Below are positions 2 through 34,558 of a stretch of 36,669 nt of DNA, piece after piece. The DNA lies in the IMG/VR virus record IMGVR_UViG_3300032058_000130, positions 1-36,669 of that record. One strand, written 5' to 3'. The DNA is from a virus. The position numbers and the translations under genes were made by a program. A model generated the notes under the pieces. It searched no databases, was not told where the DNA came from, and saw only the letters and a program-made list of their open reading frames with translations. Positions within the stretch are counted from its first letter, which is position 1. Each line of letters begins with the position of its first letter.

Positions 2-1318
2 GTGGTGGTAGTGGGGTTACCCGATAGTCTGTGGGATGCCCTATTGCCGGTGATGGTACTGGGGTTCGGTATATGGGTACAGCCGGAGGTACTCGGTACG
101 GCGGAGGAGGGGGTAGCGGTACCCGTCCTCAATGGGTACTGTGGGAATAGGTGCCTGGGGGTGGAGTCCCTTGCGGACTACATGTGTGACGTGATAGCCC
201 CGAGGAGGAGTAGCCGGTCCCGGTATAGTGGGGGGGTGAAGGTTGCGGGGCCGAGTACTGTGTATGGGGAGGATGACGGTATCTCCATCCGGAGGGCGAA
301 GGGGTGGTATAGGACGTATAGGGGGATGCAGGGCGCCCATTTGGCACACCTGGTGAGGAGGGGGTTTGCTACCCTGGAGGCGATGGCGGAGGGGATAGCG
401 ATATATCCTCTACCGGAGGATATCTACAGGGAGCTGCTGCGCAGGGTGGGGATAGCCGTGGCCAATACACGGCAACAGTGGTGGGGGATGATGGAGAAGG
501 GGAGGGATAAAGGGGTGTTCTCACTGGTGCCGGATGTGTGGGGGAATGAGGTACGCCGTAACATACCTGTGTTGGGGTTACATAAGAATGACAATGGGGT
601 ACGGGATACCGTATCCCTGCTGGAACCGGTACATCTGTCGTACAGGGATGGGGATACGACGGTGTGGACAGGGATATGGGATTGGCGTATGCTTAGGCAG
701 GATGAGATGCTACGTATGGGGGGAGGGGCCACGGAGGGGCAGGAGGAGGAAGAGGGGGAGGTGGGGGATAGGAAGAGGGCGGTAGCTCGGAGGATGCTGA
801 CAGAGCTATGGCGGTGGTGGGAGGAGATGGGGTGGATGTTGCCGGGGATGGTGACACCCTACTATGAGGATGGGGAGTGGAAGAAGGAGAAGGTGGGGCT
901 GTTGGCAGTGGAGTGCAATCAGGGGGAGGTACTGCTATGCCCTGATGCGGAGGTGGGGTACTCACTCTCGCCGTACCAGATATGGGAGTGGGGGTACCAG
1001 GATGGGTATGGGATAGAGGAGAAAGAGGGTATGTTATGTTTCTATATACCTCCCACACGGGCGACAATGCAGCAGCGGGTAGGGGTGGTCAGGGAGGGGA
1101 CGCCACGGATGGTGGTGGGGACAGTGGTCAAGGGGAACAGTAGGACCGCACAGGTGTCCTTTGCGTGGGAGGCGGAGAGGGCGGTATTGGAGAAGAAGAG
1201 GGAGGGCATGAGGGGGAAGATACAGGGATTGGTGGGGAGATATTGGGCGCCGATAGCGGGAAATAGGCGGTGGGAGAGGGAGCTATTTGGGTGGGGAGGA
1301 CGGGGCGTGCAGGGATAG
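2..1318 (+). CDS. Hypothetical protein, 5' end probably outside window, extreme G-rich codon use
   Basis: An open frame of 438 codons runs from the window edge to a TAG at 1316-1318. I do not recognise the family. The first codon in the window is GTG, but the frame may begin further upstream. The protein looks real: a mixed hydrophobic and charged sequence, Trp-rich in the middle and C-terminal parts, with an acidic run of Glu around residues 244-255. Codon choice is extraordinary: glycine is nearly always GGG, arginine often AGG, glutamate GAG, valine GTA or GTG, so the + strand is strongly G over C. No other gene in the window shares this. Competing frames on the other strand are shorter and rich in Pro, Ser and Thr, as expected for shadows of G-rich DNA. 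A terminator follows 22 bases after the stop. Function unknown. Confidence 0.6.
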   Translation: MVVVGLPDSLWDALLPVMVLGFGIWVQPEVLGTAEEGVAVPVLNGYCGNRCLGVESLADYMCDVIAPRRSSRSRYSGGVKVAGPSTVYGEDDGISIRRAKGWYRTYRGMQGAHLAHLVRRGFATLEAMAEGIAIYPLPEDIYRELLRRVGIAVANTRQQWWGMMEKGRDKGVFSLVPDVWGNEVRRNIPVLGLHKNDNGVRDTVSLLEPVHLSYRDGDTTVWTGIWDWRMLRQDEMLRMGGGATEGQEEEEGEVGDRKRAVARRMLTELWRWWEEMGWMLPGMVTPYYEDGEWKKEKVGLLAVECNQGEVLLCPDAEVGYSLSPYQIWEWGYQDGYGIEEKEGMLCFYIPPTRATMQQRVGVVREGTPRMVVGTVVKGNSRTAQVSFAWEAERAVLEKKREGMRGKIQGLVGRYWAPIAGNRRWERELFGWGGRGVQG

Positions 1319-1339
1319 TATGTTCCTGTGGGGTGCCGT

Positions 1340-1377
1340 TACCCCTCTGTACTGTGGAGGTACAGGGGGGTATTTTT
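1340..1377 (+). terminator. Intrinsic terminator after the first gene
   Basis: A 13-bp stem (1340-1352 with 1360-1372, all Watson-Crick except one G-U wobble) has a 7-nt loop and is followed directly by five T (1373-1377). It stands 22 bases after the stop of the G-rich gene and would end its transcript. Confidence 0.75.
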
Positions 1378-1571
1378 ATGCGCGGAGGGGATGGAGGGGG
1401 GTGGGTGAGTGGTAATTCCTGTTGGTGGGGATGGGGAGTAGGTGGGTATGTGGTCACGGGGGGTCGGCAATTAGGGAAGGGGGGTGTAGTGGGGAAGGGT
1501 AGAGGGTGGTGTAGATGGAGATAGTAGAGTTACACTATGCTGTCGATTTTGGGAGAGGGCGGGAAAAATAG
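1378..1571. other. Intergenic stretch, no gene recognised
   Basis: G-rich + strand sequence continuing the composition of the upstream gene. Short open frames exist (for example 1270-1524 on the + strand) but their translations are low-complexity Gly/Trp/Val and none has a convincing ribosome site. The stretch ends at the promoter at 1572. Confidence 0.5.
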
Positions 1572-1600
1572 TTGACTTAGCTGCGAGCGTGCCGTATATA
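1572..1600 (+). promoter_or_regulatory. Sigma-70 type promoter
   Basis: TTGACT (1572-1577) and TATATA (1595-1600) are separated by exactly 17 bases, close to the bacterial housekeeping consensus. Transcription would start near 1606-1608, immediately before the hairpin at 1613-1635. With the terminator at 1977-2014 it defines an isolated transcript of about 410 nt. Confidence 0.75.
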
Positions 1601-1612
1601 TATGTAGTATAA

Positions 1613-1635
1613 GACCGGCCCGCGGGGGGCCGGTC
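1613..1635 (+). promoter_or_regulatory. 5'-UTR hairpin
   Basis: A perfect 9-bp GC-rich stem (1613-1621 with 1627-1635, loop of 5) lies at the predicted transcript start. It has no T-run after it on the + strand, so it is more likely a stabilising 5' structure or a regulator-binding element than a terminator. It is 23 bases before the ribosome site of the 97-aa ORF. Confidence 0.6.
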
Positions 1636-1671
1636 AAAACGTTAACTTTCCTTTTTTAAAGGAGTAACATT

Positions 1672-1965
1672 ATGGAAACGGAAATGAAGATTCAGGAACT
1701 GGAATCGCTATTGAAAAAACTGTATGGGGTGCCCCTCAAGGGCCAACCCCACACCATCAGGAGAGGGTTCCCCATGTGGGGAACCGGCGTCCGGTTACAG
1801 GGCTATAACAAGCCCATCACGGGCGAACGAATACTTCGCCAAGTGGGGTTAGACGCCATACATGTTCCATCCCGGTTCACCCGGGTCATTGCGGACGGGC
1901 GGAATAGTCGGCAATACCTTGTATTGCCGCCCGAGCCGCAGCAGGAGGAGCCGGAACTCCTGTAA
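1672..1965 (+). CDS. Small hypothetical protein in a highly structured transcript
   Basis: A 97-residue ORF starts at ATG 1672 with a strong ribosome site AAAGGAG (1658-1664) at 7 nt. It begins with a short charged helix (METEMKIQELESLLKKLYG), has a basic middle and ends in an acidic Pro/Glu tail. I do not recognise a family. It has its own promoter (1572-1600) and terminator (1977-2014). The coding sequence contains several perfect inverted repeats: 1725-1751 (bulged, 10 bp), 1766-1785 (8 bp, loop 4), 1822-1840 (6 bp), 1871-1885 (5 bp) and 1909-1929 (9 bp, loop 3). That density is unusual for a gene; the RNA itself may be functional, with or without translation. A small early regulatory protein is the simplest alternative. 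Confidence 0.6.
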   Translation: METEMKIQELESLLKKLYGVPLKGQPHTIRRGFPMWGTGVRLQGYNKPITGERILRQVGLDAIHVPSRFTRVIADGRNSRQYLVLPPEPQQEEPELL

Positions 1966-1976
1966 AGTTCTAAAGG

Positions 1977-2014
1977 CGCCTGCAGGTCGTGGTGGCCTGC
2001 AGGCGTTTTTTTTT
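1977..2014 (+). terminator. Strong intrinsic terminator
   Basis: A perfect 10-bp stem CGCCTGCAGG / CCTGCAGGCG (1977-1986 with 1996-2005), loop of 9, followed by nine T (2006-2014). It lies 11 bases after the stop of the 97-aa ORF and isolates this unit from the genes downstream. Confidence 0.92.
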
Positions 2015-2065
2015 GGCCCGCTAAAAAAGATATCGTCCATCCGCAACCACGAGAATCACGCACTC

Positions 2066-2107
2066 GGTCGCCGGTCGCCGGGTGCCGGGTGCCGGTCGCC
2101 GGGCGCT
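2066..2107 (+). repeat. Six tandem heptamers
   Basis: Six consecutive 7-bp units of the form GGTCGCC / GGGTGCC / GGGCGCT occupy 2066-2107 in perfect register, starting 52 bases after the terminator. Nothing obvious is encoded. Confidence 0.75.
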
Positions 2108-2359
2108 CACGCACATCCGGCTTTCCGGTTTCCATTTGTACTAATCTTGCTATCGACTATCCCTGTCCAGAATGCCCGCAGCGCGCGCCAAAACCCGCCC
2201 TCCAGCAGCGACACCCCACCCCACCTGACCCCCACGCGCGAGTGGCGAAGGTGGCGGAAAGACCCCTCTCCCGCTTAACTCCCCCCCGTAACATTTTCGC
2301 CCTCCCCCACCCCGCGCGGTGCGTACGGTGCGTGCAGTACGTGGGGCAATTCCTGAGGT

Positions 2360-2373
2360 CCGTGGTTCCAGAT
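2360..2373 (-). repeat. Dispersed 14-bp motif, copy 1
   Basis: Exact ATCTGGAACCACGG read on the - strand, within the non-coding GC-rich region. Confidence 0.85.
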
Positions 2374-2574
2374 GCCCCCATGCCTCCGGTTGCGGGCGGG
2401 GGCGCGTGCGTGGGGGCAGGCGCGGGCGGGCGCGTGCGGGCGCGGGTGGGTGTGGTTGTCGGTGGAGTATGTCTACTAAAAAAACGCACTCTCCAAAAAG
2501 GTGGTATGGCTACCCCTTATAACGCTCTAAAAATGCGGATTTTTCTGATTTTCGTGCGTCTGTGGGTGTGGTCT

Positions 2575-2612
2575 GTGGGTGTGGGTGGCACTTATACACC
2601 CCCCACACCCAC
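2575..2612. repeat. Long stable inverted repeat
   Basis: GTGGGTGTGGGTGG (2575-2588) pairs with 2599-2612 at 13 of 14 positions around a 10-nt loop. The left arm is also a near copy of the sequence just before it (2561-2571), giving two direct repeats. No T-run follows, so it is not a typical terminator. Confidence 0.65.
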
Positions 2613-2809
2613 GCGTAGCGGGCGGCGTTCGGCGGTGGCGGTGCGCCGGCGTCCGGCGGCTGCGAGCGGCGGTGAGCGACAGCGAGGCGACGGCGGGGCG
2701 GCAGCGGGCGAAAAAGACGCGAACATTTTGGGGGGTGTGGCGTATGCCCCCATAAGGTTCTCGGTCGATGCCGAAAGCCGCACGACAACACCCTACAGTG
2801 GAGCTTACA

Positions 2810-3856
2810 ATGAAAGTAGTAACAGTACTACAGCCGATGAGCGATGATGCCGACGATTACCTCGACACCATCAACGAGCCGATAATGGCGATGAACACTA
2901 TCTGGGTTAATCCGCTCAAAGACAGCCGTGAGAACACGAAAATTACTCTTGAATTGCTATCCCGCGTTGGGGGGGATATGCCGCTTGCGTCACTGGCCGC
3001 CAAGCTTCCGCCCCCTTCCCGCGCCGTGCGCTTACACCCCAATACCGCGCGGGTCGTGTTCACCCGCATCTATCATCCAGGAACGAAACGCTACGTCGAG
3101 TACCCGCTGGACGATATAGAGCGTTTCAAGGTTTGCGCCAACTGCTCCCGGCGCCTGAACGCCTTTGTGTACTACCCCGCTACGCCGGACTTCTTCCACC
3201 GCGACAAGACACACGCGGACGGGATGATGTCTATCTGTGTGCTGTGCGACCACCACAAGGACAAACAACGGTGGAAAAAGCGCTACGCGACGCCCCTGGA
3301 TATCCTTCCGGAACACCTCGCCCTCGCTCGCACACAGTACGCCAAGCATATCCAAGCGTCGATGGACATCCCGCCCTTCAGCAGACCGTCCGATGCCAGC
3401 GGGTACCTGACGCCCCGCACCCACAAGTACAAGCGCTGCGCCTCTCTATGGTGTGGGCGTGTATTCCACCGGTCTGAGGTCGCCTTCGCCCCCGACGCCT
3501 CACAGCCCGACGGCCTCGACCTCCTATGCCGCCGCTGTCGGGGCATCCAACGGCGCCTGGAGGCGTACGGCGTCGCACCCGCCCCGCAGAACAGCCCCTA
3601 CGAAGCCCCGACGCTGGACGACGCGGCCATCCTGAAGGCCGCCGAATACGACAACGACAAACACACAGCGCGCAACCTCCTGCGCCGCCGGCGCCCGCGC
3701 TCCGCCTCCGCCTCCTCCGCCCCCTCCCCCGCCCCCGCCTCCACGCAGCAGGCCGCCAGCGGCGACGAGATTCCCATGCTGGATACCGAACTGGAACACC
3801 TGGCCGCCTCCGCAGCCGGTACCCCCGGATTCGACGACTCCGGACGACCGTTCTAA
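2810..3856 (+). CDS. Protein with two zinc-binding clusters
   Basis: 348 residues from ATG 2810, which has GGAG (2800-2803) 6 nt upstream; an in-frame ATG at 2768 lacks a ribosome site. Two treble-clef-like cysteine clusters are visible. The first is CxxC at residues 109-112 and CxxC at 143-146, with a typical spacer ending in ADGMMSICVLCDHHKDKQRW. The second is C210-x4-C215 and CxxC at 240-243, with PDGLDLLCRRC. This pattern (CxxC, about 30 residues, a DG turn, CxxC, basic helix) is common in phage zinc-finger and endonuclease VII/HNH-type proteins, but I see no clear HNH catalytic set. The C-terminal third is an Arg/Ser/Ala/Pro-rich linker with an acidic end. Third positions are strongly C-biased, opposite to the first gene. 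Lying beside the origin-like region, it could be a DNA-binding or replication protein; that is inference. Confidence 0.75.
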   Translation: MKVVTVLQPMSDDADDYLDTINEPIMAMNTIWVNPLKDSRENTKITLELLSRVGGDMPLASLAAKLPPPSRAVRLHPNTARVVFTRIYHPGTKRYVEYPLDDIERFKVCANCSRRLNAFVYYPATPDFFHRDKTHADGMMSICVLCDHHKDKQRWKKRYATPLDILPEHLALARTQYAKHIQASMDIPPFSRPSDASGYLTPRTHKYKRCASLWCGRVFHRSEVAFAPDASQPDGLDLLCRRCRGIQRRLEAYGVAPAPQNSPYEAPTLDDAAILKAAEYDNDKHTARNLLRRRRPRSASASSAPSPAPASTQQAASGDEIPMLDTELEHLAASAAGTPGFDDSGRPF

Positions 3857-3870
3857 CACACCCACCGCCC

Positions 3871-3895
3871 AGCGCCCCCTCCTACAGGGGGCGCT
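3871..3895 (+). terminator. Hairpin after the zinc-cluster gene
   Basis: A perfect 9-bp stem AGCGCCCCC / GGGGGCGCT (3871-3879 with 3887-3895), loop of 7, lies 14 bases after the stop codon. There is no T-run, so termination efficiency is uncertain. Confidence 0.45.
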
Positions 3896-3900
3896 ACGGC

Positions 3901-3951
3901 GCGCGCATGTACTATAGGCGCGCGCATACTATAGGAGCGCGCGTACTATAG
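3901..3951 (+). repeat. Iteron array A, three 17-bp units
   Basis: Three directly repeated 17-bp units (3901-3917, 3918-3934, 3935-3951). All end in TACTATAG and start with a GCGC-type run. A degenerate fourth unit may follow at 3952-3962. The 17-bp period equals that of array B at 4231. Tandem units of this size beside AT-rich DNA are typical of initiator-binding iterons. Confidence 0.8.
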
Positions 3952-3980
3952 GCGCACAATAGTACATGTACGCGCAGTAA

Positions 3981-4010
3981 GTAAATAAATAAATAAATAA
4001 ATAATATATA
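3981..4010. repeat. AT-rich tetranucleotide tract
   Basis: About five and a half AAAT units followed by AATATATA (3981-4010), abruptly AT-only between GC-rich iterons and a run of C at 4011. It could act as a DNA unwinding element. Confidence 0.7.
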
Positions 4011-4047
4011 CCCCCCCTTTTTGGAAATCGCGATAGTCGGGAAAACC

Positions 4048-4126
4048 ACACCCCCTGAAGATTTTCGCAGAAAAAACGCGTGTATCTCACGCAGTATTAA
4101 GGAGTTACGTTTTTTCTGGGGGGTGT
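4048..4126 (+). ncRNA. Large bulged inverted repeat, possible structured RNA or cruciform
   Basis: CAGAAAAAACG (4068-4078) pairs perfectly with 4108-4118. The helix continues, after a 12-nt one-sided bulge (4056-4067), with ACACCCCC (4048-4055) pairing to 4119-4126, for 19 bp in all. The 29-nt loop holds a second 5-bp hairpin (4078-4082 with 4088-4092, sharing one base with the main stem) and a TTAAGGAG sequence (4098-4104). No ORF follows that ribosome-site-like sequence closely enough to be convincing. It may be a replication-origin cruciform or a transcript structure. Confidence 0.5.
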
Positions 4127-4172
4127 ATAGGGGGTGCAGGGGTACCCCCAGCCACACCCACAGAAGATTTAT

Positions 4173-4181
4173 TGTGAATAA
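4173..4181 (-). promoter_or_regulatory. DnaA-box-like site inside a perfect dyad
   Basis: The - strand reads TTATTCACA, matching the DnaA-box consensus TTATNCACA. It lies in a perfect 15-bp dyad TTTATTGTGAATAAA (4168-4182). A second site with one mismatch, TTTTTCACA, is on the + strand at 4201-4209. Both are between the two iteron arrays. Confidence 0.55.
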
Positions 4182-4230
4182 AGCACTGTTATATGTACTT
4201 TTTTTCACAACTATCTTACCCATCTTAACC

Positions 4231-5156: not shown

Positions 5157-5634
5157 GGCGTCCTCGCTGCAGGAGGTGGAAGCGGAAACACTAATGACGA
5201 CCGCCGCCAAAGCGCGTGGAAAGGGGGTAAAACAGTCCGGCCTGGATAGTATGTGGAGTACGCTGGGTGGACGGCCTACCCCCCGCGGGCTGCAGTTGTT
5301 GCAGAAAATACGGGCGTCTAAGCTGACGCGGCATCGGGTGGCTTGTATGCTGCGCCGGTTGAGTACACAAGAGCGTCTGCTGATGGGCCGACATATCACG
5401 TGGTGGACGCCGCACGCCAAGGACGGCGACCCGGATTACTATATCCAGCGGATTACCAATAAACTCCACAGCGCGGGGTATCTGGAATCCCGATGGCCGT
5501 TGTATCTGGTGCTGCTTAGAACGAATATTTCCAATCCAGAATGGCTATCCTATGTCGCGGTGATGGGTGCGGTATGGGATACCCTGCAGGAGTGTGCGGA
5601 TGAATATGTCGCCGCCCGAAAACGCGGAGTATAG
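4951..5634 (+). CDS. Hypothetical protein before large terminase (alternative small terminase)
   Basis: 227 residues from ATG 4951, with AAGGA about 9 nt upstream; a TGA immediately precedes the ATG in frame, so it cannot extend upstream. The N-terminus is Gln-rich and helical, the middle Thr/Pro-rich, and the C-terminal 100 residues look globular (helices with WWTPHAKDG and a Trp/Leu-rich end). It overlaps the upstream ORF by 206 bases and the terminase gene by 35. Position directly before the large subunit makes it an equal candidate for the small terminase. No family recognised. Confidence 0.65.
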   Translation: MENDQKHLTTEQIAQMQQRARALLSNNPPSPPTEGFYTKASEDLRSPEPLPPMWIGLPTTQTENLTGNEASSLQEVEAETLMTTAAKARGKGVKQSGLDSMWSTLGGRPTPRGLQLLQKIRASKLTRHRVACMLRRLSTQERLLMGRHITWWTPHAKDGDPDYYIQRITNKLHSAGYLESRWPLYLVLLRTNISNPEWLSYVAVMGAVWDTLQECADEYVAARKRGV

Positions 5635-7564
5635 TACGATTGACCGGATAATGCAGTACGTGGACGAGAACCCGTACTGGCCGCTACCTGCGGATTACCC
5701 CGAGTTGAGCGAGGACGGCAAGCGCAACGCACGGCTGGCGGCGGTTTCCACCCAGAACACTATAGACGCGTTCGTCGGCGCGTGGATGCTGTTTCGCCGG
5801 ATGTATCTGATACCCACCGAACCGGGGTTCTTCTACCACAACTACGCCGAAAGCCCGCCGTTCCACTACGACCTCATTCGGTTTGCCGCTGAATACGCCC
5901 GCAATTTGGTGGCGGCCCCGCGTGGGTATGCCAAGAGCGTTATCATCGGTACAGAGCTTCCGCTGATGCTGATGCTGACGCGCCCGTATATCCGCATTGC
6001 GCTGGGTATGGCGACCGATAAGCTGATTGAGGACAGGTTCGAAATCTTCAACCGGCAGTTTCAGGAGAACCCCTACATCATTCAGGACTTCGGCCTGCAA
6101 CGCCCCAAACGAGGTATGGCGATTTGGAACCGCCACCACTTGCAGTTATTGAATGGGTCGAAGATACAGGGGTTCAGCGTTACGGGGCGCAAACGCGGCG
6201 CACGACCGGACTTGTTCATCTTGGACGACCCTGAATACGACCCCGATACCGAAGGCGGCGCACTGGTGGCGCGGGATAGATTCGAGGGGTTTTTGTTCAA
6301 GCAGATTATCCCGATGCTGGAAAGCGGTTCGGGGATTTACTGGATAGGTACGCTGATTGGGCGACGGTCGTTTATCGGCCACGCCTGCTACGGGGACGAC
6401 AAGCGCTTTACCTATTGGAACCGGCGCATTTACTCCGCCTTATCGGAAGACCCGCAGACCGGAAAGACCGAACTGCTGTGGGGGGAGAAGTGGGACGAAG
6501 GTACGCTTCGGGTGCGGCGGGAGGAAATCGGCGAGGCCCACTTTATGTCCGAATATATGAACCGCCCCGGTTCGACGCAAGATAGAACGCTTCGCATAGA
6601 CCCGCTTCTGAACGAGTACACCGTAGAACACGATAAGCCCACCGGCCCGCTGTCGTTGAACAGCGGGGCGTTGTTGAAATGGTATGATTCAACCGGCGTC
6701 GAACAGCGGCAGCAGGCGTCCGAGGTGTTCAGCAAGATGTACCGCATCATTGCCTTCGACCCCGCACGCGGGCTGTCGGCGCACCACGATTATTCGTGCA
6801 TCGCCGTAATGGGATTCGACCGGAGCAATATCCTTTGGGTGTTGGATATGTGGATGGGCCGTGCGCCGGAGGCGATACTGATGCGCAATATCTTCCGCCT
6901 CGGCGCCCGCTGGCGTGTCCACGTGATAGGGATAGAGAGCGTTTCCCGCCAAATTATGCTGGTGGATTCGCTGACGACCTACGTCGCCGCCCATCGCGAT
7001 GAGTTGGGCGACGACGCCCGCTGGATGCCGCGTATTGTGCCTGTTGAGTATGCGGGGGTACGCGGCGGCGCATCGAAAGCAGACCGTATTATGACGCTGG
7101 AGTGGCGCTTTGAAACGGGACGCATCAAATATCCGGCCTATCTGAAGAACAAATGGCCGTTCAATATGCTATATGCGCAGACGGAGGATTTTACCTATGA
7201 CCTGAACTTGCTGGAACACGACGACGCTATTGACGCGGTGGCGATGGCGCACTATATTGTCCACGCGCGAGGAGCGGGTGGAAACGTTAGCGCCGTGACG
7301 CCGCCGAAAACCTTCGAACAGTATATGAGGGAGGGTCAGTTTGAATGGCAGGGGCTTCCGCTGATAAACGCCTTCGGGGTGCAGGGTCTGACCCCGGAAG
7401 TATTGGAGTCTATCTACACCGCCCACCACGACCGCGCCGTGGGGCGGCCCACACAGACAGGGCTTCGTTATGCGCGGGAAACTGGATTGAAATACCGCCC
7501 GTCCTCTCGCATCGTGCGAACAAGGCGGGCTTACATTCCTACGCTTGTGTACAGAAAGGATTAA
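5600..7564 (+). CDS. terL: Terminase large subunit
   Basis: 654 residues from ATG 5600, chosen because AGGAG (5588-5592) lies 7 nt upstream; the open frame reaches back to 5567 without such a site. It is the ATP-driven DNA-packaging motor and headful or site-specific nuclease that docks on the portal. Visible motifs: Walker A PRGYAKS (107-113), Walker B LFILDDPE (205-212), and an RNase H-like nuclease with AFDPARG (Asp387), VIGIES (Glu446) and HDDAIDAV (540-547). Length is normal for the family. The start overlaps the preceding gene by 35 bases, suggesting translational coupling. Confidence 0.95.
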   Translation: MNMSPPENAEYSTIDRIMQYVDENPYWPLPADYPELSEDGKRNARLAAVSTQNTIDAFVGAWMLFRRMYLIPTEPGFFYHNYAESPPFHYDLIRFAAEYARNLVAAPRGYAKSVIIGTELPLMLMLTRPYIRIALGMATDKLIEDRFEIFNRQFQENPYIIQDFGLQRPKRGMAIWNRHHLQLLNGSKIQGFSVTGRKRGARPDLFILDDPEYDPDTEGGALVARDRFEGFLFKQIIPMLESGSGIYWIGTLIGRRSFIGHACYGDDKRFTYWNRRIYSALSEDPQTGKTELLWGEKWDEGTLRVRREEIGEAHFMSEYMNRPGSTQDRTLRIDPLLNEYTVEHDKPTGPLSLNSGALLKWYDSTGVEQRQQASEVFSKMYRIIAFDPARGLSAHHDYSCIAVMGFDRSNILWVLDMWMGRAPEAILMRNIFRLGARWRVHVIGIESVSRQIMLVDSLTTYVAAHRDELGDDARWMPRIVPVEYAGVRGGASKADRIMTLEWRFETGRIKYPAYLKNKWPFNMLYAQTEDFTYDLNLLEHDDAIDAVAMAHYIVHARGAGGNVSAVTPPKTFEQYMREGQFEWQGLPLINAFGVQGLTPEVLESIYTAHHDRAVGRPTQTGLRYARETGLKYRPSSRIVRTRRAYIPTLVYRKD

Positions 7565-7568
7565 CACA

Positions 7569-7949
7569 ATGGAACAGACTGTTTATGTCCCTATCACCTA
7601 CTGGGCGCTGGTGGCTATCGCCCTCTGCGCCTGCCTATGCTGTGTGGCCGTGGTCGCCGGATTGTTGGCGCTGGCGTACCTGTCCGGCAAGCAAAAGAAC
7701 GCGCAGACCTTCATCCCGCTGGGCGTACAGCACCCCCGTGCGCCGATACCGCCAGCAGCCCTACGGCAGCAGGGTAACGCTGCCCCGATGGGTACTACCC
7801 CCAATCCGGCGCACCGCCCGCCCAACCCGCTGATGCCGGACTCTCCGGCACACCCCCGTACAGAATCCGGCGAACAAACACCCGATGCACAGCGTAGTCG
7901 TGTCCAGTTGCGTGTCGGTACCGAAATACCGCCTGTCACGCCGGAATAG
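7569..7949 (+). CDS. Small single-span membrane protein
   Basis: 126 residues from ATG 7569, preceded by AAAGGA at about 8 nt and four bases after the terminase stop. One strong hydrophobic segment at residues about 10-38 (ALVAIALCACLCCVAVVAGL and following), then a Pro/Ala/Gln-rich, probably disordered tail of about 85 residues. The Cys cluster in the membrane span is notable. Small membrane proteins next to packaging genes can be holin or spanin components, but nothing here proves that. Confidence 0.65.
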   Translation: MEQTVYVPITYWALVAIALCACLCCVAVVAGLLALAYLSGKQKNAQTFIPLGVQHPRAPIPPAALRQQGNAAPMGTTPNPAHRPPNPLMPDSPAHPRTESGEQTPDAQRSRVQLRVGTEIPPVTPE

Positions 7950-7964
7950 CCAAGCGGGACGGCC

Positions 7965-7993
7965 TTGCCCTAACCGCCGCCCTGTGCTATAAT
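7965..7993 (+). promoter_or_regulatory. Promoter for the portal/capsid block, with overlapping dyad
   Basis: TTGCCC (7965-7970) and a perfect TATAAT (7988-7993) are 17 bases apart. An inverted repeat CGCCGCC (7975-7981) / GGCGGCG (7995-8001) brackets the -10 box, so a dimeric regulator could sit on it. The start would be near 8000, 75 bases before the portal ATG. Confidence 0.75.
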
Positions 7994-8043
7994 AGGCGGC
8001 GATACCGTCCCATAGCGATAACCCAAATCGGATACGAATATGA

Positions 8044-8057
8044 ATCTGGAACCACGG
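8044..8057 (+). repeat. Dispersed 14-bp motif, copy 3
   Basis: Exact ATCTGGAACCACGG followed by T; ends 17 bases before the portal ATG, just upstream of its ribosome site. Confidence 0.9.
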
Positions 8058-8074
8058 TACAAGGATGAACGAAA

Positions 8075-10138
8075 ATGGCGGATGTACTGATATTACCCAA
8101 AGACGCCTCGGCACGGGAAGAGGCGTTGAATCGGCTGATTGACGAAGGCACACAGCTACGCCATGTGCGGGAGGTGGAGTGGTGGCTGATACACTACTAC
8201 CTACAGGGAGCACGGGAGTTCGGCGCGTTGGATTATCAGAGGGGGCTGGTGGACGCCAACTTCTACAATCAGGAAGGCGAACTGAAGTTTCGGTATGACG
8301 ATATTGTCAGTGTGCTTCAGACGCAGGTAGGACGGCTGATGCAGGCGGACCTGAGGCCGTCGGTATCCAAGCGTGGGATTGGGTTGGAAGACCTCCAGAA
8401 GGCGGCGACAGGTCAGGTAGTGCTGGATTATCTGTTTCCGGAGTCGTATGTGGAACAACGGAAACTGCTGGCGATACCGTCGCTGTTGAAGTATGGGACG
8501 ATTGGGTTGGCGGTGTGGAAGGACAGCGAACATATCGGGATAGATATTGTGCCGCCGTGGGAGTTGGTGCCGCTTCCGCCGAATCCGATTGAGCCGTTCG
8601 ACACACGGGGTATCGCCCGCTGTCGCATGGTGCCGCTGTCGTGGGTAAAGCAACTGTCGGTAGCGCCGGGTCCTGCGGCGAAGGTGTGGGACGAGATGCA
8701 GACGATTGAGGTGCCGGTGGGGTTTGCCAACACCAGCGCACACGAGTCGTTTGCGACGTTCACGGAGGCGGTGTCGATTACAGGCGCGATTTCGACGATG
8801 GGAGATGCGACACAGGAGTTGTATGGGTCGTCCTCGTCGCGCAAGACAAGGGGGGGACGACAGAGTACAGAGAAAGCCGTGATGTTCGTTGAAGTATGGA
8901 CGGACGACGGCAATGGGATGTTGAAGGATTATACGATTCTGTGTGGGAAGAAGGAGATACACCACAATAATTGGTCCGGCAAGGGAATGCGGATGCCCAT
9001 CCATATCGCGCGGGATATTCCGGCAGGCGGATTCTGGGGGCGGTCGTTCTGTTCGATACTGATGCCCATTAACGTGGAGATTGAAAATACACTGGCGAAT
9101 CTCCTGCAGAATGTGCAAGATGCCGATACGTTTGGTCTATTGTGCGAACCGACGACGCTGGGGATACCGACAGAAGTAATGCGCGGGACGGATGGGATAC
9201 GCAGGATACGGTATGAACCGGATTATACCAGTCCGTATCAACTACAACCGTTCAACATTGCGCCCGCCAATACGGGATTAGCGCCGGTGCATACGCTGAA
9301 GGTGGCGGTGGAGCTGATGCAGCGGATGAGCAACCAGCCGACGGAGATGATGCGGGGTGCGGCGCCGGGGAGGGTGGATAGCGGGTCTGGATTGGGGTTC
9401 TTGTACGAGGTGTCCAATATGCCTATCAGCCCGACGGTGGCGTCGCTGTCGCATGCGTTTATCGGATGCTATGAGGCGGCGCTGAATGTGGCGCGGCTGG
9501 TGTGGACGGAGGACCGACTGGTGGAGATTACACATCTGGATGATTCTCTGATGGGGATTACGCTGGACCCCTCTACAGGGCAGATGCAATTGGACAATGC
9601 CGCAATACCGGCTCATGATGAGGTACGTGTAACCGTTCGGAGTATGCTGCCCAAGAGCGCCGAGAAGGAAAAGCAGGACCTGTTGACGGCGCTGACGACG
9701 GGCGTGATGGATTTGTTTGAATACCGGATTGAGGTACGCAAGAGGGGATTGGATACGCCGGTGGGCGGAGAAGCGGAATGGCAGAACTTTCGCCGCGCGA
9801 CGTTGGAGAATATCATCCTCTTTGGCGGTGGGCAGAAGCCGGGGGAGGTGATTGTCAGCGACCGTGATATGCACAGCGTCCACTTGCGTGTGTTGCAGAA
9901 CTTTATGAGCAGACCGGAGTTTTATCTGGCGTCTGTGGAGGTACGAGATGCGTTTGCCGCCCACTATGAGGCGCATCTGACCAGTAGCGCCAATACCCTG
10001 CCCGACCAGATGCCCTATCCAGAGGACGCCGCCCAACAGCAGCGTATGTCGCCGGCGTCCCCGATGGGAATGGGAATGGGAATGGGAATGCAGGAGATGA
10101 TGGGGGGGCAAGGCGGCGGAGGACCGTTTCCGCAATAG
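8075..10138 (+). CDS. Portal protein
   Basis: 687 residues from ATG 8075, with AAGGA (8061-8065) 9 nt upstream. The portal is the dodecameric ring at one capsid vertex through which DNA is packaged and ejected. Position right after the terminase, length near 700, and an N-terminal segment with EGELKFRYDDIVSVLQTQVG followed by a domain with VPPWELVPLPPNP fit the large portals of podovirus-like phages. The C-terminus is Gln/Met/Gly-rich, with four tandem GM repeats encoded by ATGGGA units near 10064-10087. It has its own promoter (7965-7993). Confidence 0.85.
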   Translation: MADVLILPKDASAREEALNRLIDEGTQLRHVREVEWWLIHYYLQGAREFGALDYQRGLVDANFYNQEGELKFRYDDIVSVLQTQVGRLMQADLRPSVSKRGIGLEDLQKAATGQVVLDYLFPESYVEQRKLLAIPSLLKYGTIGLAVWKDSEHIGIDIVPPWELVPLPPNPIEPFDTRGIARCRMVPLSWVKQLSVAPGPAAKVWDEMQTIEVPVGFANTSAHESFATFTEAVSITGAISTMGDATQELYGSSSSRKTRGGRQSTEKAVMFVEVWTDDGNGMLKDYTILCGKKEIHHNNWSGKGMRMPIHIARDIPAGGFWGRSFCSILMPINVEIENTLANLLQNVQDADTFGLLCEPTTLGIPTEVMRGTDGIRRIRYEPDYTSPYQLQPFNIAPANTGLAPVHTLKVAVELMQRMSNQPTEMMRGAAPGRVDSGSGLGFLYEVSNMPISPTVASLSHAFIGCYEAALNVARLVWTEDRLVEITHLDDSLMGITLDPSTGQMQLDNAAIPAHDEVRVTVRSMLPKSAEKEKQDLLTALTTGVMDLFEYRIEVRKRGLDTPVGGEAEWQNFRRATLENIILFGGGQKPGEVIVSDRDMHSVHLRVLQNFMSRPEFYLASVEVRDAFAAHYEAHLTSSANTLPDQMPYPEDAAQQQRMSPASPMGMGMGMGMQEMMGGQGGGGPFPQ

Positions 10139-10240
10139 ACCGTAATATTTTTTGAAAGGTTCAAATACTATGTACAGACGACACTATAGCGACTACCTAA
10201 CGGACCGTCTTTCTTCTCCTCTCGTGTTAGACGGGTCATC

Positions 10241-10282
10241 GGTATGCGGGCCGGCGCGCCTCCCGCACGCTTCCCGCATACC
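10241..10282 (+). promoter_or_regulatory. Inverted repeat before the scaffold gene
   Basis: GGTATGCGGG (10241-10250) and CCCGCATACC (10273-10282) form a perfect 10-bp stem around a 22-nt GC-rich loop. It lies in the portal-scaffold interval (10139-10397), which I read as mainly non-coding, 24 bases before motif copy 4. Confidence 0.6.
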
Positions 10283-10306
10283 CACATTATTTGCACAACC
10301 ACCTGT

Positions 10307-10320
10307 ATCTGGAACCACGG
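10307..10320 (+). repeat. Dispersed 14-bp motif, copy 4
   Basis: Exact ATCTGGAACCACGG followed by T; 77 bases before the preferred scaffold start at 10398. Confidence 0.9.
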
Positions 10321-10397
10321 TCGGATGCCTGTATTTTGCCGATACGGGAATAGGAGGGGCAGTCGGGGCCGGGGGGGCTGGCGAACAGGAGGATAAT

Positions 10398-11321
10398 ATG
10401 CAGGAGGAAGGGGGGAGGGAAGATGGGAAAGAGAGAGTAGAGGGGCAGCAGGGGAAGGAGGATAGTGGGGCTGGGAAGGATGCTGTGTATCCCGTAAAAG
10501 TGGATGGGAAAGAGGTGTATATGACGCTGGAAGAGCTACGGCGGAAGGCGTCGGAGGCAGCCGGAGCACAGCGTAGATTTGAGGAAGCGGCGGAAATGCG
10601 TCGGAAGGCGTCCGCCGGAATGCGTTTGCTGGAATTGGTGGAGAAGATTAACGAGGCGTCCGCGTCGGGTGGAGTACCCGATAGACGGGACCTTGAAGAG
10701 TTTGTGCGGATGCTGGGGGGAAGTACGGATGCGGTAGAATCGTTTATGGAGCAATTGGAAGAGCAAACAAGACCAGCACGGAATACAGGACACAGAATGA
10801 ATGATAATAACAGTAAACCGATACAAAAAGAGGACTTAGCTCCAGAATTACAACGGGTGTTGGACAGCGTGCAGGAGCATGAACTGCAGAGTATTCGGGA
10901 GAAAATTATTACCGAAACAAGAAAAGGGGTTGACAACGACCCTATTCTGAGTAAAATGTTAAGCGAGTTGCCGGACGACTCGCAAGAGGAAATCCGACAA
11001 ACGCTCTATGAAATAGCGGAAGACAAGGTAAGGACGATGATTGTAGCAGACGGGAAGCCGTTTGGCCCTCAGATGGTGCAGGAGGTCGCTCAACGATTGC
11101 GAGCGGTTGCAAAGAATCTGGGTAAGCCGGCACGCGGCAGCACGGGTGGGCAACCCCCTATGGTGGGACTCGGACCGGGAGCTTGGGACCCGTACATCGT
11201 ACCGGACAAACCTGTCGAGCGAGTTCCCTCGTCACACCCTGATTATATCGATAATCGGGTGCAAGCGACCCTGCAACGGCTGGCGATGAAATCCAGAACA
11301 GGCATTGGGTCAAGAAGGTAG
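10398..11321 (+). CDS. Putative scaffolding protein
   Basis: 307 residues from ATG 10398, chosen because a full AGGAGG (10387-10392) lies 5 nt upstream. The open frame continues back to ATG 10170, which has GAAAGG at 10 nt; the extra 76 residues look unlike the rest and would cover an inverted repeat and a copy of the 14-bp motif. Scaffolds guide assembly of the coat protein and are lost before or during packaging. Evidence: location between portal and major capsid, acidic Gly/Glu-rich N-terminus, long helical coiled-coil middle (LEELRRKASEAAGAQRRFEE), then a Pro/Gly-rich basic C-terminus, which in scaffolds often binds coat. Confidence 0.75.
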   Translation: MQEEGGREDGKERVEGQQGKEDSGAGKDAVYPVKVDGKEVYMTLEELRRKASEAAGAQRRFEEAAEMRRKASAGMRLLELVEKINEASASGGVPDRRDLEEFVRMLGGSTDAVESFMEQLEEQTRPARNTGHRMNDNNSKPIQKEDLAPELQRVLDSVQEHELQSIREKIITETRKGVDNDPILSKMLSELPDDSQEEIRQTLYEIAEDKVRTMIVADGKPFGPQMVQEVAQRLRAVAKNLGKPARGSTGGQPPMVGLGPGAWDPYIVPDKPVERVPSSHPDYIDNRVQATLQRLAMKSRTGIGSRR

Positions 11322-11409
11322 AGGAGGGTATTCGTACCCGCAGGGGTAGTAACCTTGTTTGCTCACGTACAGAAACAAAACAGGTATTGAGTGAATAAGG
11401 AGTAGTAAA

Positions 11410-12909
11410 ATGGCATACGCAATAGATGCTCTGGATAATCTTATCCGAGAAGAGCTTCCCTCTGTAGTTTATGAATCGCTGATTGAAATTGCGCCTGTGT
11501 ATAAGTACATCAAGCGTACCAGTATGGGCGTAAAACGAAGCGGGATTGGGCGTGGATGGGAAGTTCTCCACTTATTTGGTACCGGTGTAGCGGGGTTGAT
11601 GGGCAACGCTAACCCGGCAGGACCGGCAATGTTCGACTCGACCCGGTATCCGCAGAGCCGCGTGCTGGATTATGATACGGCAGGCAATCTGACGCCGTTT
11701 CCAGCCGCCGCTGAAGCGCCGCATCAGTACGTCCTCAAGCGGACATTGCAATTGCACAAGTCAACGGGTAACTTCTCGATTCCCATTACGTGGATGAGCG
11801 CCGATGCGTTGGATGCCTCGCAGGTAGCGCAGGTGGTGCGGGATATTAAGGCGGTCGGCGACCTTCGTGCGCAGACAGAAGCGGTTAGTTTCTTTATGGG
11901 GTCGTCCAATACCCTGTGCCGAATGGCTAATCTGAGTACTGCAGGAGCGTCCAACGGCACGTTGAAGTTTACGGTTGCACCGGGTACAGGCAGAACGGCG
12001 TTCTTCCGTGTGGGTATGATGGTGGATATCTACGCCGACAACGGGTCTGGGTCCCCGACAGGGAACCCTCGGAATGTAGTAGGCACGACCTATTGCCCGA
12101 TGATTGTCGCCGACGTGGATTACCTGTATGGCGTGATTACGATACAGGCGGTCCGTGGGACAAATATCTCCGGTATTTCGTTCACGAACGGACAGCACGT
12201 AGCGCTTCGCGGGGCCAACATCTCGCGCGAGATGAGAAGCTGGGGTCTGGAAGACTGGATTAAGAGCAGCGGCGTCATCCTCGGCGGACAGCCTGGCGAC
12301 CCGTGTTTGGATTTGGATGTGTACAGCCAGTTCAAGAGTTTGGTAGTGGACAACGTAGGTGGGCCGTTGACAGACGTTGTGATGAATCGGTATATCGGCG
12401 GGTTCCTTGATTCGTACGCGGGGAATCGGTTGGATACGATTATTACTACGATGGGGGTTACGATTCGGCACTTGGAACAGCCGCTGTCGAACACGCTGAC
12501 CGGCGCGAATGAAACGCAGTTCTACGATAGAACGGGAAAACCGCTGACTGTACAGGGCGGCTGGGACGATGTGGGCTATAGCTTTAATGGACGTAAGTTC
12601 AATTGGCTGATTAGCCCGTTGTGCATCGCAGGTCGTCTGTACGCAGTGAAGTTTGCGGGTGGCAATGTCCAGCGGTATATTCCCCCGGCGGTGGGTGGTA
12701 CAGACGCTCGTGTAGGCAATGAAGTGGAGTTTATGGCTCCGCTGGCCGGCTCCAGCAGCATTTTTATGCCGGGTCGGTCAAGCACAGGCGCGCCGCAGGA
12801 ACTGATTGAGGCGCCGTTCTGGCAGTATATTCTGGTCTGCCCTATTGATGTTCGCAGCGTCAAGCTGGCTGGGTTGTCGGAAGCGGACTTAAGCGGCGGT
12901 AATGAATAA
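11410..12909 (+). CDS. Major capsid protein
   Basis: 499 residues from ATG 11410, with AAGGAG (11397-11402) at 7 nt. It is the coat protein, presumably HK97-fold, assembling on the scaffold. The call rests on position after portal and scaffold, length, and composition: a short helical N-terminus (LIREELPSVVYESLIEIAPV), Gly/Asn/Thr-rich beta sequence, and a C-terminal segment with a LIEAPFWQYILVCPIDVRSV pattern typical of coat C-termini. No catalytic or zinc motif is present. A GC-rich hairpin follows (12949-12975) and could protect or terminate the transcript. Confidence 0.82.
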   Translation: MAYAIDALDNLIREELPSVVYESLIEIAPVYKYIKRTSMGVKRSGIGRGWEVLHLFGTGVAGLMGNANPAGPAMFDSTRYPQSRVLDYDTAGNLTPFPAAAEAPHQYVLKRTLQLHKSTGNFSIPITWMSADALDASQVAQVVRDIKAVGDLRAQTEAVSFFMGSSNTLCRMANLSTAGASNGTLKFTVAPGTGRTAFFRVGMMVDIYADNGSGSPTGNPRNVVGTTYCPMIVADVDYLYGVITIQAVRGTNISGISFTNGQHVALRGANISREMRSWGLEDWIKSSGVILGGQPGDPCLDLDVYSQFKSLVVDNVGGPLTDVVMNRYIGGFLDSYAGNRLDTIITTMGVTIRHLEQPLSNTLTGANETQFYDRTGKPLTVQGGWDDVGYSFNGRKFNWLISPLCIAGRLYAVKFAGGNVQRYIPPAVGGTDARVGNEVEFMAPLAGSSSIFMPGRSSTGAPQELIEAPFWQYILVCPIDVRSVKLAGLSEADLSGGNE

Positions 12910-12948
12910 CCGAGCGACGGGCGGTTTATAGTTTTGGGGTCTGGCGGT

Positions 12949-12975
12949 GGCGGCCCGGCATAGTGTCGGGCCGCC
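12949..12975 (+). terminator. GC-rich hairpin after the capsid gene
   Basis: Perfect 9-bp stem GGCGGCCCG / CGGGCCGCC (12949-12957 with 12967-12975), loop of 9, 39 bases after the capsid stop. No T-run follows; it may attenuate or stabilise the transcript rather than end it. Confidence 0.5.
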
Positions 12976-13001
12976 TATCCCCCTATCAGAGAGGATATTG
13001 T

Positions 13002-13992: not shown

Positions 13993-16017
13993 ATGGCAGA
14001 AAAGCGACGCTATATCGTTGATTTAGAAGACTTCAATCTTGTCTTGCCGCGTGTACAAGCGACAGGGGTTTCGATTCTGTCTATCCAGCCCGTTGTAGAA
14101 AGCTGCACCGTTGAATGCGATGCGGCGATGGTAGAAACGCTGCGTCGCATTGATGGCGTGCGTGGGGTGTTCCCCGACTTTGAAGCGGAATTGCTACTTA
14201 CGCAGGCCGTTGCAGAGGCGGAGAACGATTATTGGGCGTTGGCCAACATCTGCAACCGTGTCGGTGAATACCGGTCAATCTGCACGGGCTACGGCGTCGA
14301 TATTTGCATTATCGACACGGGGTTTAACCCGATGCACGCCGATTTTGGGCGGAACAGCGAGTGCAATACAGAGCCGATACAGCACGATATTTCAGAATTG
14401 CAACTGTCAAACAAGCCGCTGTTTGGCAATTTTTACCCATATCAGTTGCCAAACAGCGGAAACAGTTATAAAACAAACGGCTGGCCGCATTGTGTAACGG
14501 CCTATACATACAACTACCAGTTCCCTATTGTCGGTATTGACGAATACACGTGGTTGAGCAATCCGGATGCAAGAAACAATGTTGAGTTCATTGTTCATTT
14601 GGAACAAACACAGGACGTTTCCGAAAGGTTGGATGCGTTCTTTCTGGCGTTGCAAACACAGCCGGAACTCAAAAATATGTTCATACGCGGTGTTACAGGG
14701 TTCACGATAACTAATATAGTCGGCGATATCGTGGCTCCGAGCGGGTCTGTGGTGGAGCGGGTATCGACATGCAGCGTCAAATACCGCGTTGATTATGCAA
14801 AAAAAAGCGACCTTCTGCCCTATCAATCCGGCGGCGTAATGGTAGCCAGGACTTCAGTGACGGATACAATGGCGGATAGTTTTGGCGGTCGAGCAATGGT
14901 CATCCGGCCTGCATTTTTTTCTTCCAATGGTATTGTCGTAACCAACAATTATTACGCATCATATTGGTCGGCAAATGAATATTTCTCGCGTTATCGGCAC
15001 GGCCAATGCGTTGCAGGATGTGCGGCGGGGACAATGTCCGGCATTGCAAAAGGGGCGCATCTTTATTTACTGCCGACAAGAGCATCAACATCGTCTGTCG
15101 CTGTGGCGATTGAAGACGTAATCCAATTTCATCAATTCAAACTCGCACATCAGATAAATCGACCCACCGTTGCGAATATGTCTTGGACGATTACGATGGA
15201 AAAAAGACTACTTACGCCGCAGGAGCAAGAAGAAATAACACGGTATTACAGTTATATTGCTGAATTGATGGATGATTCGGGGGTTGTTTGGGTTGCCGCC
15301 GCTGGCAACAGTAAAATGCGGTTGCCGGCAGAGCAATATCTGATGTTCCCACAGCAAATCCGTCCGTCCACATCGTTAAATGCAGGCGCAATCGACATCC
15401 AGAACCGGCTGGCCTATTTCAGCAATTACGGCGCAATCGTTGATGTATTTGCGCCAGGACATCGTGTCAAGACAGCTAAAACCTATGGGATGCAACTTAA
15501 TACAGCCATTTATTTGCTAAGCCCGTCTGAAGAAGAAGAGAATTATATGTCTATCAGTGGGACATCGGTTTCGTCGCCTTATACGGTTGGCGTTGTGGCG
15601 TGCGCCTTACAGGCGGGCAGGTTTGGGATATTCGCGTCAAAGTCGCAAACGCATCAATTCCGCCAATGGTTTTTGACGCACTATACTCGAGCGTGGAATA
15701 ACGTCAAGCATTTTAACAGCGCAATTTCGTTGTCAGAAGTGCGTTCCAACCCATCGCTGCTCGATAACCCGAATAACTGGTTTGACGGTTTCCCGCCAGA
15801 CGATAACGGCAGTCCGGCGAAACTGCTTTATCTGCCGAATGCGGTGTTTGTGCGGGGTAACCATTGGGAAATCCCAGCCGTGTCGCACAGTTATGAGATG
15901 AACATTAACGGAGAACCGGCGACCGTTTATGATAACTATGTGAGCGTCAATGGCGTGTTGTACGGGTATGGGCAGACATTCAAATTGGGTAATGTTGTGT
16001 GTAAGGTTAAAAACTAA
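13993..16017 (+). CDS. Subtilisin-like serine protease (S8) with large insertion
   Basis: 674 residues from ATG 13993 (an in-frame GTG at 13975 is less likely). All subtilase signatures are present: catalytic Asp108 in IDTG, His336 in HGQCVAG, oxyanion Asn439 in AAAGNS, nucleophile Ser525 in SGTSVSSP. An N-terminal I9-like propeptide precedes them (RYIVDLEDF ... GVRGVFPDFE). In normal subtilases the Asp and His motifs are roughly 30-50 residues apart; here about 228, so roughly 180-190 residues are inserted, with a helical ERLDAFFLALQTQPELKNMF segment. The C-terminal 130 residues look like an added beta domain. There is no signal peptide, so it is likely virion-attached or acts in the cell. 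The stop overlaps the next start by one base (TAATG), tying it to the GLUG protein. Likely roles: maturation of fibre or virion proteins, or cleavage of host surface proteins. Confidence 0.93.
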   Translation: MAEKRRYIVDLEDFNLVLPRVQATGVSILSIQPVVESCTVECDAAMVETLRRIDGVRGVFPDFEAELLLTQAVAEAENDYWALANICNRVGEYRSICTGYGVDICIIDTGFNPMHADFGRNSECNTEPIQHDISELQLSNKPLFGNFYPYQLPNSGNSYKTNGWPHCVTAYTYNYQFPIVGIDEYTWLSNPDARNNVEFIVHLEQTQDVSERLDAFFLALQTQPELKNMFIRGVTGFTITNIVGDIVAPSGSVVERVSTCSVKYRVDYAKKSDLLPYQSGGVMVARTSVTDTMADSFGGRAMVIRPAFFSSNGIVVTNNYYASYWSANEYFSRYRHGQCVAGCAAGTMSGIAKGAHLYLLPTRASTSSVAVAIEDVIQFHQFKLAHQINRPTVANMSWTITMEKRLLTPQEQEEITRYYSYIAELMDDSGVVWVAAAGNSKMRLPAEQYLMFPQQIRPSTSLNAGAIDIQNRLAYFSNYGAIVDVFAPGHRVKTAKTYGMQLNTAIYLLSPSEEEENYMSISGTSVSSPYTVGVVACALQAGRFGIFASKSQTHQFRQWFLTHYTRAWNNVKHFNSAISLSEVRSNPSLLDNPNNWFDGFPPDDNGSPAKLLYLPNAVFVRGNHWEIPAVSHSYEMNINGEPATVYDNYVSVNGVLYGYGQTFKLGNVVCKVKN

Positions 16018-17471
16018 TGCCTATTGTAGAAATGGGGTCAACGATGGAAGTGCGATATTTATTCGAGCTTGTCCAGATTGAAACGACAGGACGAGCGGAA
16101 ACGTATGTCTTGAAGAACGAGATTGACGCCTCGGCTACAATGCAGGCGGCTCCGGCGTGGGCGGCGTCCACTGTCTATGAAAAGTGGGAGGTTGTCCGCA
16201 CGGGCGGCAGCATCTATCAGTGCAAGCAGGCGCACACGTCGGGCGCATCGTTTGAAAGCGACAATTGGATACTCGTGCGGGCGGAAGTGCCGTTGTACAG
16301 TAATGCTTCGACCTACGCGGTCGGCGATGTCGTACGGTACCCGACCACAACGCCCGACGGCGTGTACCAGTGTAAAGTGGAGATTACCGCCGGCGAGGAG
16401 TGGAACTCCGCAAAGTGGGTCAAGATTGCCAATCTTGGCTCTACGATGCCTAACGGATATGTGGGCGTCTGCAGCACGTCGGGGGCGGCCTTTATCGGTA
16501 CGCTGGACGGCGGCGGTTATACGATTAGGCATTTATACCAGTGGTCGAATACGACAGAACAACACGGACTGTTTGGGTATTTAGGCGAAAACGGCGTGGT
16601 GCGAAACTTGTATTTTGCCAACGGTTGCCTGTACCGCTTTGGGACTGGGGGTATAACGGGGACCACGGGTTTGGTGGCGGCGAATTTTGTGACTCCGAGT
16701 TTTAAGCCAATTACAATACAAAACGTTCACGCCATTGACTGCTTATTGCAGGGTGGCAACAGAGTTGGGTCTTTTGTCGGAGAAGCAAATAGCTGTTTCA
16801 GGATATCAATCCAAGAGTGTTCGTCCAACGCCATCGTAAAATCGAATTCGTCGTTTGTAACGGGCGCTTTTGTCGGTGGTCTTGTTGGTAGCGGTGTTGT
16901 TGGTTATAAACCTTACGGTACCGGAATAAAGAGATGTTTGTTTAACGGGTCTTTGTACGGCAATTCGTCAACGAAAGCGCATGTGGGTGGGCTGTATGGC
17001 GGTTTTAGTGCTACTACTTCAGCCATATGCGCCGAGGATTGTATCTTTTCAGGCAGTATAACCGGCTCGGTGGTAAAAGCAGGTGGGATTGCGGCTACGG
17101 CGTTAAGCCAAGACGGGAATTATTACATTAAAGCCTGCCTGAACACGGGGACTATATCTCTGGCGGCGGGAACAAAATACGGGATAAATGAGAACATCGG
17201 CTATGTCGAGAACTGCTATTACGATACGCAGACCACCGGATGCACTGATAGGCCAACGCAGCAGCGCACGACAGAGCAAATGAAAAAACGGAGCTTTCTG
17301 GTCGGGCTGGATTTTGACAGGATATGGTATCTGCCAAAATCGCCTGTTATCGCAAGCCCGTTTAACGGCGGTTATCCCATCCAGCGACATTGGATAGACA
17401 TTCAGTCCTCCGGCGTATCCGGCGGCAGTAATATGCGTGGCGCTGCGTCGCTACTGGGGTTTGGATTATGA
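16017..17471 (+). CDS. Putative fibre or adhesion protein with carbohydrate-binding and GLUG-like repeats
   Basis: 484 residues from ATG 16017, sharing one base with the protease stop. Two short repeats at about residues 46-88 and 92-135 share the pattern STVYxxGxVV..GxIYQCK..HTSG..xxxxW, like the chitin-binding (CBM5/12) type fold. From about residue 145 comes a beta-helix-like region with GLUG motif features: GTLDGGGYTIRHLY, HGLFGYLGENGVVRNLYF, then VGGLVGSGV and VGGLYGGFSA. GLUG repeats occur in bacterial surface proteins and adhesins. Tail end unrecognised. A receptor-binding or tail-fibre protein is most likely; it may also be a substrate of the coupled protease. Confidence 0.75.
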   Translation: MPIVEMGSTMEVRYLFELVQIETTGRAETYVLKNEIDASATMQAAPAWAASTVYEKWEVVRTGGSIYQCKQAHTSGASFESDNWILVRAEVPLYSNASTYAVGDVVRYPTTTPDGVYQCKVEITAGEEWNSAKWVKIANLGSTMPNGYVGVCSTSGAAFIGTLDGGGYTIRHLYQWSNTTEQHGLFGYLGENGVVRNLYFANGCLYRFGTGGITGTTGLVAANFVTPSFKPITIQNVHAIDCLLQGGNRVGSFVGEANSCFRISIQECSSNAIVKSNSSFVTGAFVGGLVGSGVVGYKPYGTGIKRCLFNGSLYGNSSTKAHVGGLYGGFSATTSAICAEDCIFSGSITGSVVKAGGIAATALSQDGNYYIKACLNTGTISLAAGTKYGINENIGYVENCYYDTQTTGCTDRPTQQRTTEQMKKRSFLVGLDFDRIWYLPKSPVIASPFNGGYPIQRHWIDIQSSGVSGGSNMRGAASLLGFGL

Positions 17472-34553: not shown

Positions 34554-34558
34554 TGCAA

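Follow-up and report, generated by a model that had tools for sequence, protein, structure and literature searches.

The window analysed here, the whole 36,669-base virus record IMGVR_UViG_3300032058_000130 of an unclassified tailed phage, holds a 97-aa gene (P0001) whose hairpins exceed chance expectation, which carries a coding signature, ends in an intrinsic terminator and has a Shine-Dalgarno (SD) sequence predicted to be masked. We infer a cis role for the hairpins, exerted on the message that carries them: the reading we prefer, to which we would give about an even chance, is an mRNA of one gene whose unusually dense predicted fold serves message stability and translation control. It is supported by the excess of folding and of stems over four kinds of control, the coding signature, the SD hairpin and the single-gene layout, and weakened by the lack of a homologue in the searches described below, the weak promoter match, and related phages whose isolated genes do not carry the chain of hairpins. 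In such a message, decay from either end would be hindered by the 5′ hairpin and the terminator, endonucleases would find little single-stranded RNA between ribosomes because of the hairpins in the open reading frame (ORF), and the weak SD hairpin would hold translation low until ribosomes, temperature or a trans-acting factor opened it; the main product of the unit would be the protein.

The transcription unit and its gene

As read from the sequence, the region is a one-gene transcription unit made up of a promoter-like site, a 5′ hairpin, a masked SD, a 97-codon ORFan and an intrinsic terminator (Table 1), and the folding predictions support well a discrete, strongly structured transcript unit that overlaps a small protein gene. 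The promoter, 5′ hairpin and terminator named in the initial annotation are all in place, the promoter being a weak match that our scan, whose rule requires a T at the last −10 position, did not list. The terminator was detected by a separate script, the scan with its loop limit of 8 having left it unlisted. The 5′ hairpin lies a few nucleotides past the inferred transcription start with no T run behind it; its palindrome was also considered as a repeated operator and rejected, no second copy being present within the window at up to three mismatches.

Table 1. Coordinates of the unit, of its surroundings in the window and of genes in related phages.
Record	Feature	Position	Strand	Remarks
Window	Promoter-like site TTGACT-17 nt-TATATA	1572..1600	+	read in sequence; 9/12 consensus matches
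Window	5′ hairpin, 9 bp, loop 5	1613..1635	+	pair probability 0.99–1.0
Window	SD hairpin TCCTTT-TTT-AAAGGA, 6 bp	1649..1663	+	pair probability 0.59–0.89
Window	SD AAGGAG	1659..1664	+	7 nt upstream of ATG
Window	97-aa ORF P0001, ORFan	1672..1965	+	SD, frame, codon-position GC
Window	Stem 1, 6 bp outer + 4 bp	1725..1751	+	two unpaired bases on one side
Window	Stem 2, 8 bp, loop 4	1766..1785	+	
Window	Stem 3, 5 bp	1800..1815	+	
Window	Stem 4, 6 bp	1822..1840	+	
Window	Stem 5, 5 bp	1871..1885	+	
Window	Stem 6, 9-bp hairpin, loop 3 (1909–1929), or 7-bp alternative	1896..1933	+	
Window	Stem 7, 6 bp	1942..1962	+	ends directly 5′ of UAA stop
Window	Intrinsic terminator, 10 perfect bp (17 in fold), then T run	1977..2012	+	stem 1977–2005
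Window	G-rich ORF	2–1318		left neighbour of 97-aa gene
Window	Terminator-like hairpin	1340–1372		3′ of ORF 2–1318
Window	Gene 2768–3856	2768–3856		right neighbour; weak match to Lar-like restriction alleviation family, E 3.4e-4
Window	Large terminase	5567–7564		PHROG 38, E 4.7e-67
Window	Portal-like gene	8075–10138		label by position only; conserved with relatives
Window	Capsid-like gene	11410–12909		label by position only; conserved with relatives
Window	Subtilase	13975		
Window	Two DNA methylases	33534–35632	−	
L004	Isolated gene with SD	399–902		same gene in L003, L032
L027	Isolated gene with SD; SGK..THGN family	2569–2922		
L035	Isolated gene with SD; SGK..THGN family	3001–3354		
L021	Similar isolated gene; SGK..THGN family	1727–1972		upstream of packaging block
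L022	SGK..THGN family	686–940		
L036	SGK..THGN family	3404–3595	−	
L007	SGK..THGN family	6618–6824		

Ten predicted hairpins cover the leader, the ORF and the 3′ end at a spacing of about 25–45 nt, and every stem of the chain first annotated was recovered. The SD hairpin is an addition to that list and pairs TCCTTT with the AAAGGA of the SD; folded in an 80-nt context, the SD is unpaired with a probability of 0.14, and of the 16 genes with an SD (20 genes examined) one, the gene at 30289, is lower (0.08). Two of the stems have competitors. Stem 1 reaches a probability of 0.06–0.07 in the global fold, where it is outcompeted by longer pairing, and 0.83–1.0 with the pairing span limited to 40 nt, while the 9-bp form of stem 6 is near 0.5 probable because segments 1896–1902 and 1927–1933, exactly complementary over 7 bp, form a competing stem. 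One might go further and picture a new kind of dual-use mRNA whose roughly ten hairpins, one of them locking the start signal, would make it a long-lived RNA with a function of its own, opened on cue for protein; we give this a slim chance.

Messages of type I toxins such as hok or aapA are stable, folded mRNAs with a masked SD that require processing before translation. The masked SD, the 5′ hairpin and the size of about 400 nt would all suit a message of this type, translated only after processing, but the product here is by eye polar and 97 aa long rather than a short hydrophobic peptide, no antisense RNA was identified (the promoter scan lists no minus-strand site in 1200–4200), and PADLOC gave no match, so that such a toxin-like message seems extremely unlikely.

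The 97-aa ORF looks like a real coding gene by its SD, frame and codon-position GC. GC at the three codon positions is 0.63/0.39/0.68, like that of five other phage genes, and the frame is the best of six by phage codon usage (+0.118 vs −0.183 and −0.235), with a runner-up on the minus strand (+0.024) that is not far behind. By eye the product has a proline- and glutamate-rich tail, and structure prediction run without an alignment returned a mean pLDDT of 45, too low to build on.

The gene sits at the left of the record, between the end of the G-rich ORF and the gene at 2768–3856, about 3.6 kb upstream of the large terminase. Several features of these surroundings were noted in passing. Positions 1–1500 have a strong G-over-C skew (0.45–0.55) across the G-rich ORF, for which profile searches returned no family match; positions 1–250 of L004, 5′ of its isolated gene, are by eye G-rich too. 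Downstream of the right neighbour, 3880–4020 contains GCGCGC repeats, ACTATAG-like repeats and then a stretch of consecutive AAAT units, and a gene of the structural block (16017–17471) carries a carbohydrate-binding module 5/12.

Fold energy and stem density

The ORF has a folding energy of −121.9 kcal/mol, below that of every control sequence. Dinucleotide shuffles and synonymous-codon shuffles both averaged −99.7 (z −3.8 and −4.6, respectively) and codon permutations −97.3 (z −4.6), none of the 150 sequences in each set being as stable; shuffles that preserve protein, codon usage and dinucleotides together averaged −103.5 (z −3.7, 0 of 400). Repeats of the synonymous shuffle with fewer sequences gave z −3.7 (40 shuffles) and −4.0. 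For the whole transcript (1606–2012), terminator and 5′ hairpin included, z was −6.4 and none of 100 shuffles was as stable. The energy comparison with dinucleotide and codon shuffles that the initial annotation had proposed as a check thus came out in its favour.

Fold energy places the ORF among a small company of outliers in this genome. Among 93 coding tiles of 294 nt (40 shuffles each; mean z −0.53, sd 1.22, with a low-side tail), the ORF has the lowest absolute energy and ranks second by synonymous z (−3.7), behind tile 8663–8956 in the portal-like gene (−4.3), with further tiles at −3.4 and −3.3; that a tile of the structural block scores lower indicates that single outliers occur in this genome. 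Likewise, among 366 slices of 150 nt compared with dinucleotide shuffles, the region lies in the low tail with company, the slices at 8801, 14401 and 4001 being lower than that at 1901. Because tiles and slices elsewhere are similarly low, fold energy alone is suggestive, and the true outlier is stem density.

Counted with arms of at least 5 and loops of 3–10, the ORF contains seven stems, where two controls gave expectations of 1.8 and 1.7 (0 of 300 in each), so the earlier suspicion that so many stems are beyond chance is upheld. We then placed this figure in a survey of half-overlapping 294-nt tiles from this phage and related phages, for which 12 of 43 loci were left out (L001, which is this stretch, and 11 overlapping or near-identical copies) and L027 and L035 were both retained despite identical slot proteins. 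A single tile of 3009 (32 records, 449,529 bases), at position 1765 of the window, reaches at least seven stems or 88 paired bases; the terminator falls within that tile, and for the ORF alone the counts are seven stems and 88 paired bases.

Stems of this kind could still be without function, an extreme outcome of the sequence history of an ordinary small gene, arising from GC-rich codons or from local template-switch repair that makes short inverted repeats. The minus strand of the ORF is equally structured (z −4.9, against −3.8 on the plus strand), as inverted repeats at the DNA level would be, a result also expected simply because the stems are perfect Watson–Crick pairings; the low-side tail of the coding tiles and the related phages, whose isolated small genes at or close to this location have no chain, point the same way. 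However, the stem density is the highest of all tiles surveyed, the excess survives shuffles that preserve protein, codons and dinucleotides, and the stems run on through leader, ORF and 3′ end. We regard a functionless origin as unlikely, if well worth keeping in view.

The folding of perfect stems on both strands, together with a location some 3.6 kb ahead of the large terminase, would also be in keeping with a chain of inverted repeats 5′ of the terminase block that works as DNA, whether in binding a protein, starting replication or packaging. Yet the arms differ by eye from one stem to the next, and the gene that encloses the repeats is coding and has a terminator of its own; we consider such an element very unlikely.

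Searches for homologues and the corresponding place in related phages

No homologue of P0001 was found in IMG/VR or GTDB contigs (by a pattern search that detects close relatives only), among 50,697 phage records, in plasmids, in the whole records of 13 phage relatives or the other relative loci compared, or in Pfam, PHROGs, NCBIfam, PADLOC and PDB sequences. A nucleotide search of phages touched 21 records, the 20 listed being short matches (5–7% of the query, E at least 2). Used as bait, the two neighbouring genes (2768–3856 and 2–1318) retrieved no relative from IMG/VR, and the terminase profile had no match in GTDB contigs. A limited literature search found no description of the 97-aa gene. 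At the RNA level, none of 4227 Rfam models matched within the window at its gathering cut-off; with the limit relaxed to E ≤ 10 there were four weak matches (E 0.5–6), the best of them, Scr1601, at 16 bits against a cut-off of 100.

Relatives of the phage were recovered through the terminase and the portal- and capsid-like proteins (about 35–58% identity; terminases about 36–54%), and several have an isolated gene in or near the same place (Table 1). In L004 and in L027 and L035 this gene is followed by a hairpin and stands 5′ of a gene similar to that at 2768–3856. L027 has an 11/12 promoter-like site before it; in L004 the scan lists no promoter 5′ of the gene, and TTGACA with a TATAAG-like hexamer can be read by eye. 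The synonymous z of these ORFs is −1.4 (L004), −1.9 (L027) and −0.1 (L021), and their stem counts are not clearly above chance, being equalled by 39, 15 and 100 of 100 shuffles, respectively. So the gene slot may be shared while the hairpin chain is not, which argues against a conserved structural RNA. For each of the loci L003, L004 and L032, the tile richest in stems falls at the 3′ end of the isolated gene and just downstream, favouring a structured place over a structured gene. The 128 nt after the L004 gene (903–1030) contain several perfect stems (z −5.0 vs dinucleotide shuffles).

A dual-function RNA was raised as a possibility in the initial annotation. On this reading the transcript would act in trans, as a sponge, guide or protein-binding scaffold, and would also encode the 97-aa protein. 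A discrete unit of about 400 nt with hairpins along its length and a masked SD would fit such a role. Against it stand the Rfam result, with no match at gathering scores and four weak ones far below their cut-offs, the absence by eye of a repeated loop motif among the listed stems, the lack of any conservation seen, and a coding signature that is that of normal genes. The structured unit is retained as a prediction; the dual-function RNA we judge decidedly unlikely.

Some of the isolated genes belong to a small protein family (63–117 aa) of these relatives with a core like SGKS..VATTHGN..TG...VGLNAY, for which there was no Pfam match at cut-off and nothing below E 0.1 in PHROGs. The L004 protein is not a recognisable member by pairwise score. 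P0001 was tried as a member and rejected: one pair gave a BLASTP E of 0.044, but 23 of 500 shuffles did as well, hmmsearch with the family profile did not report P0001 at E ≤ 1000, and hhalign returned a probability of 0.3%.

Two further observations concern other genes of the relatives. In L007 the large terminase (10001–12979) reads as a single open frame in which about 350 additional residues separate the two halves; the insert begins CFTGDTEVYTPMG, ends VHN before S and contains LLEGYLSGDGY, and by these motifs it looks like an intein with a LAGLIDADG endonuclease. In L002, the capsid-block gene range 6957–8501 shows an in-frame stop or frame change in translation.

Comparison with known systems

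Published work on coding-sequence structure and start-region control fits the preferred reading, a folded message acting in cis, but does not decide it. According to PMC4619774, mRNA abundance in E. coli correlates with mean coding-sequence structure, and genes that end in UAA are enriched for structure immediately before the stop, a placement that stem 7, directly 5′ of a UAA stop, resembles; work cited in the same paper found that computed structure failed to predict mRNA abundance. Conserved structures in viral coding regions are surveyed in PMC6563262.

If the folds have been selected, the unit would be a compact natural message structured along its whole length with its coding intact; otherwise, it illustrates the lengths to which chance and local repeat formation can take a small gene. 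Like the GOLLD and ROOL RNAs it appears as a discrete structured phage transcript, but it is protein-coding, matches no Rfam family at its gathering cut-off and is much shorter, a difference in size already noted in the initial annotation.

The ompA and papA mRNAs are stabilised by 5′ stem-loops. The present unit resembles them in that a strong predicted hairpin stands a few nucleotides from its inferred 5′ end, with a leader and an SD behind it; it differs in that its stems extend through the ORF and the SD itself is paired. The papers on these stem-loops are among the references in PMC3997798. In T4, start-region structures control translation of genes 43 and e, as described in PMC3014915; in that account the structure lies at the start region, and, set beside it, the 97-aa gene has no known repressor. 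What the T4 messages and the present unit have in common is structure at the translation start.
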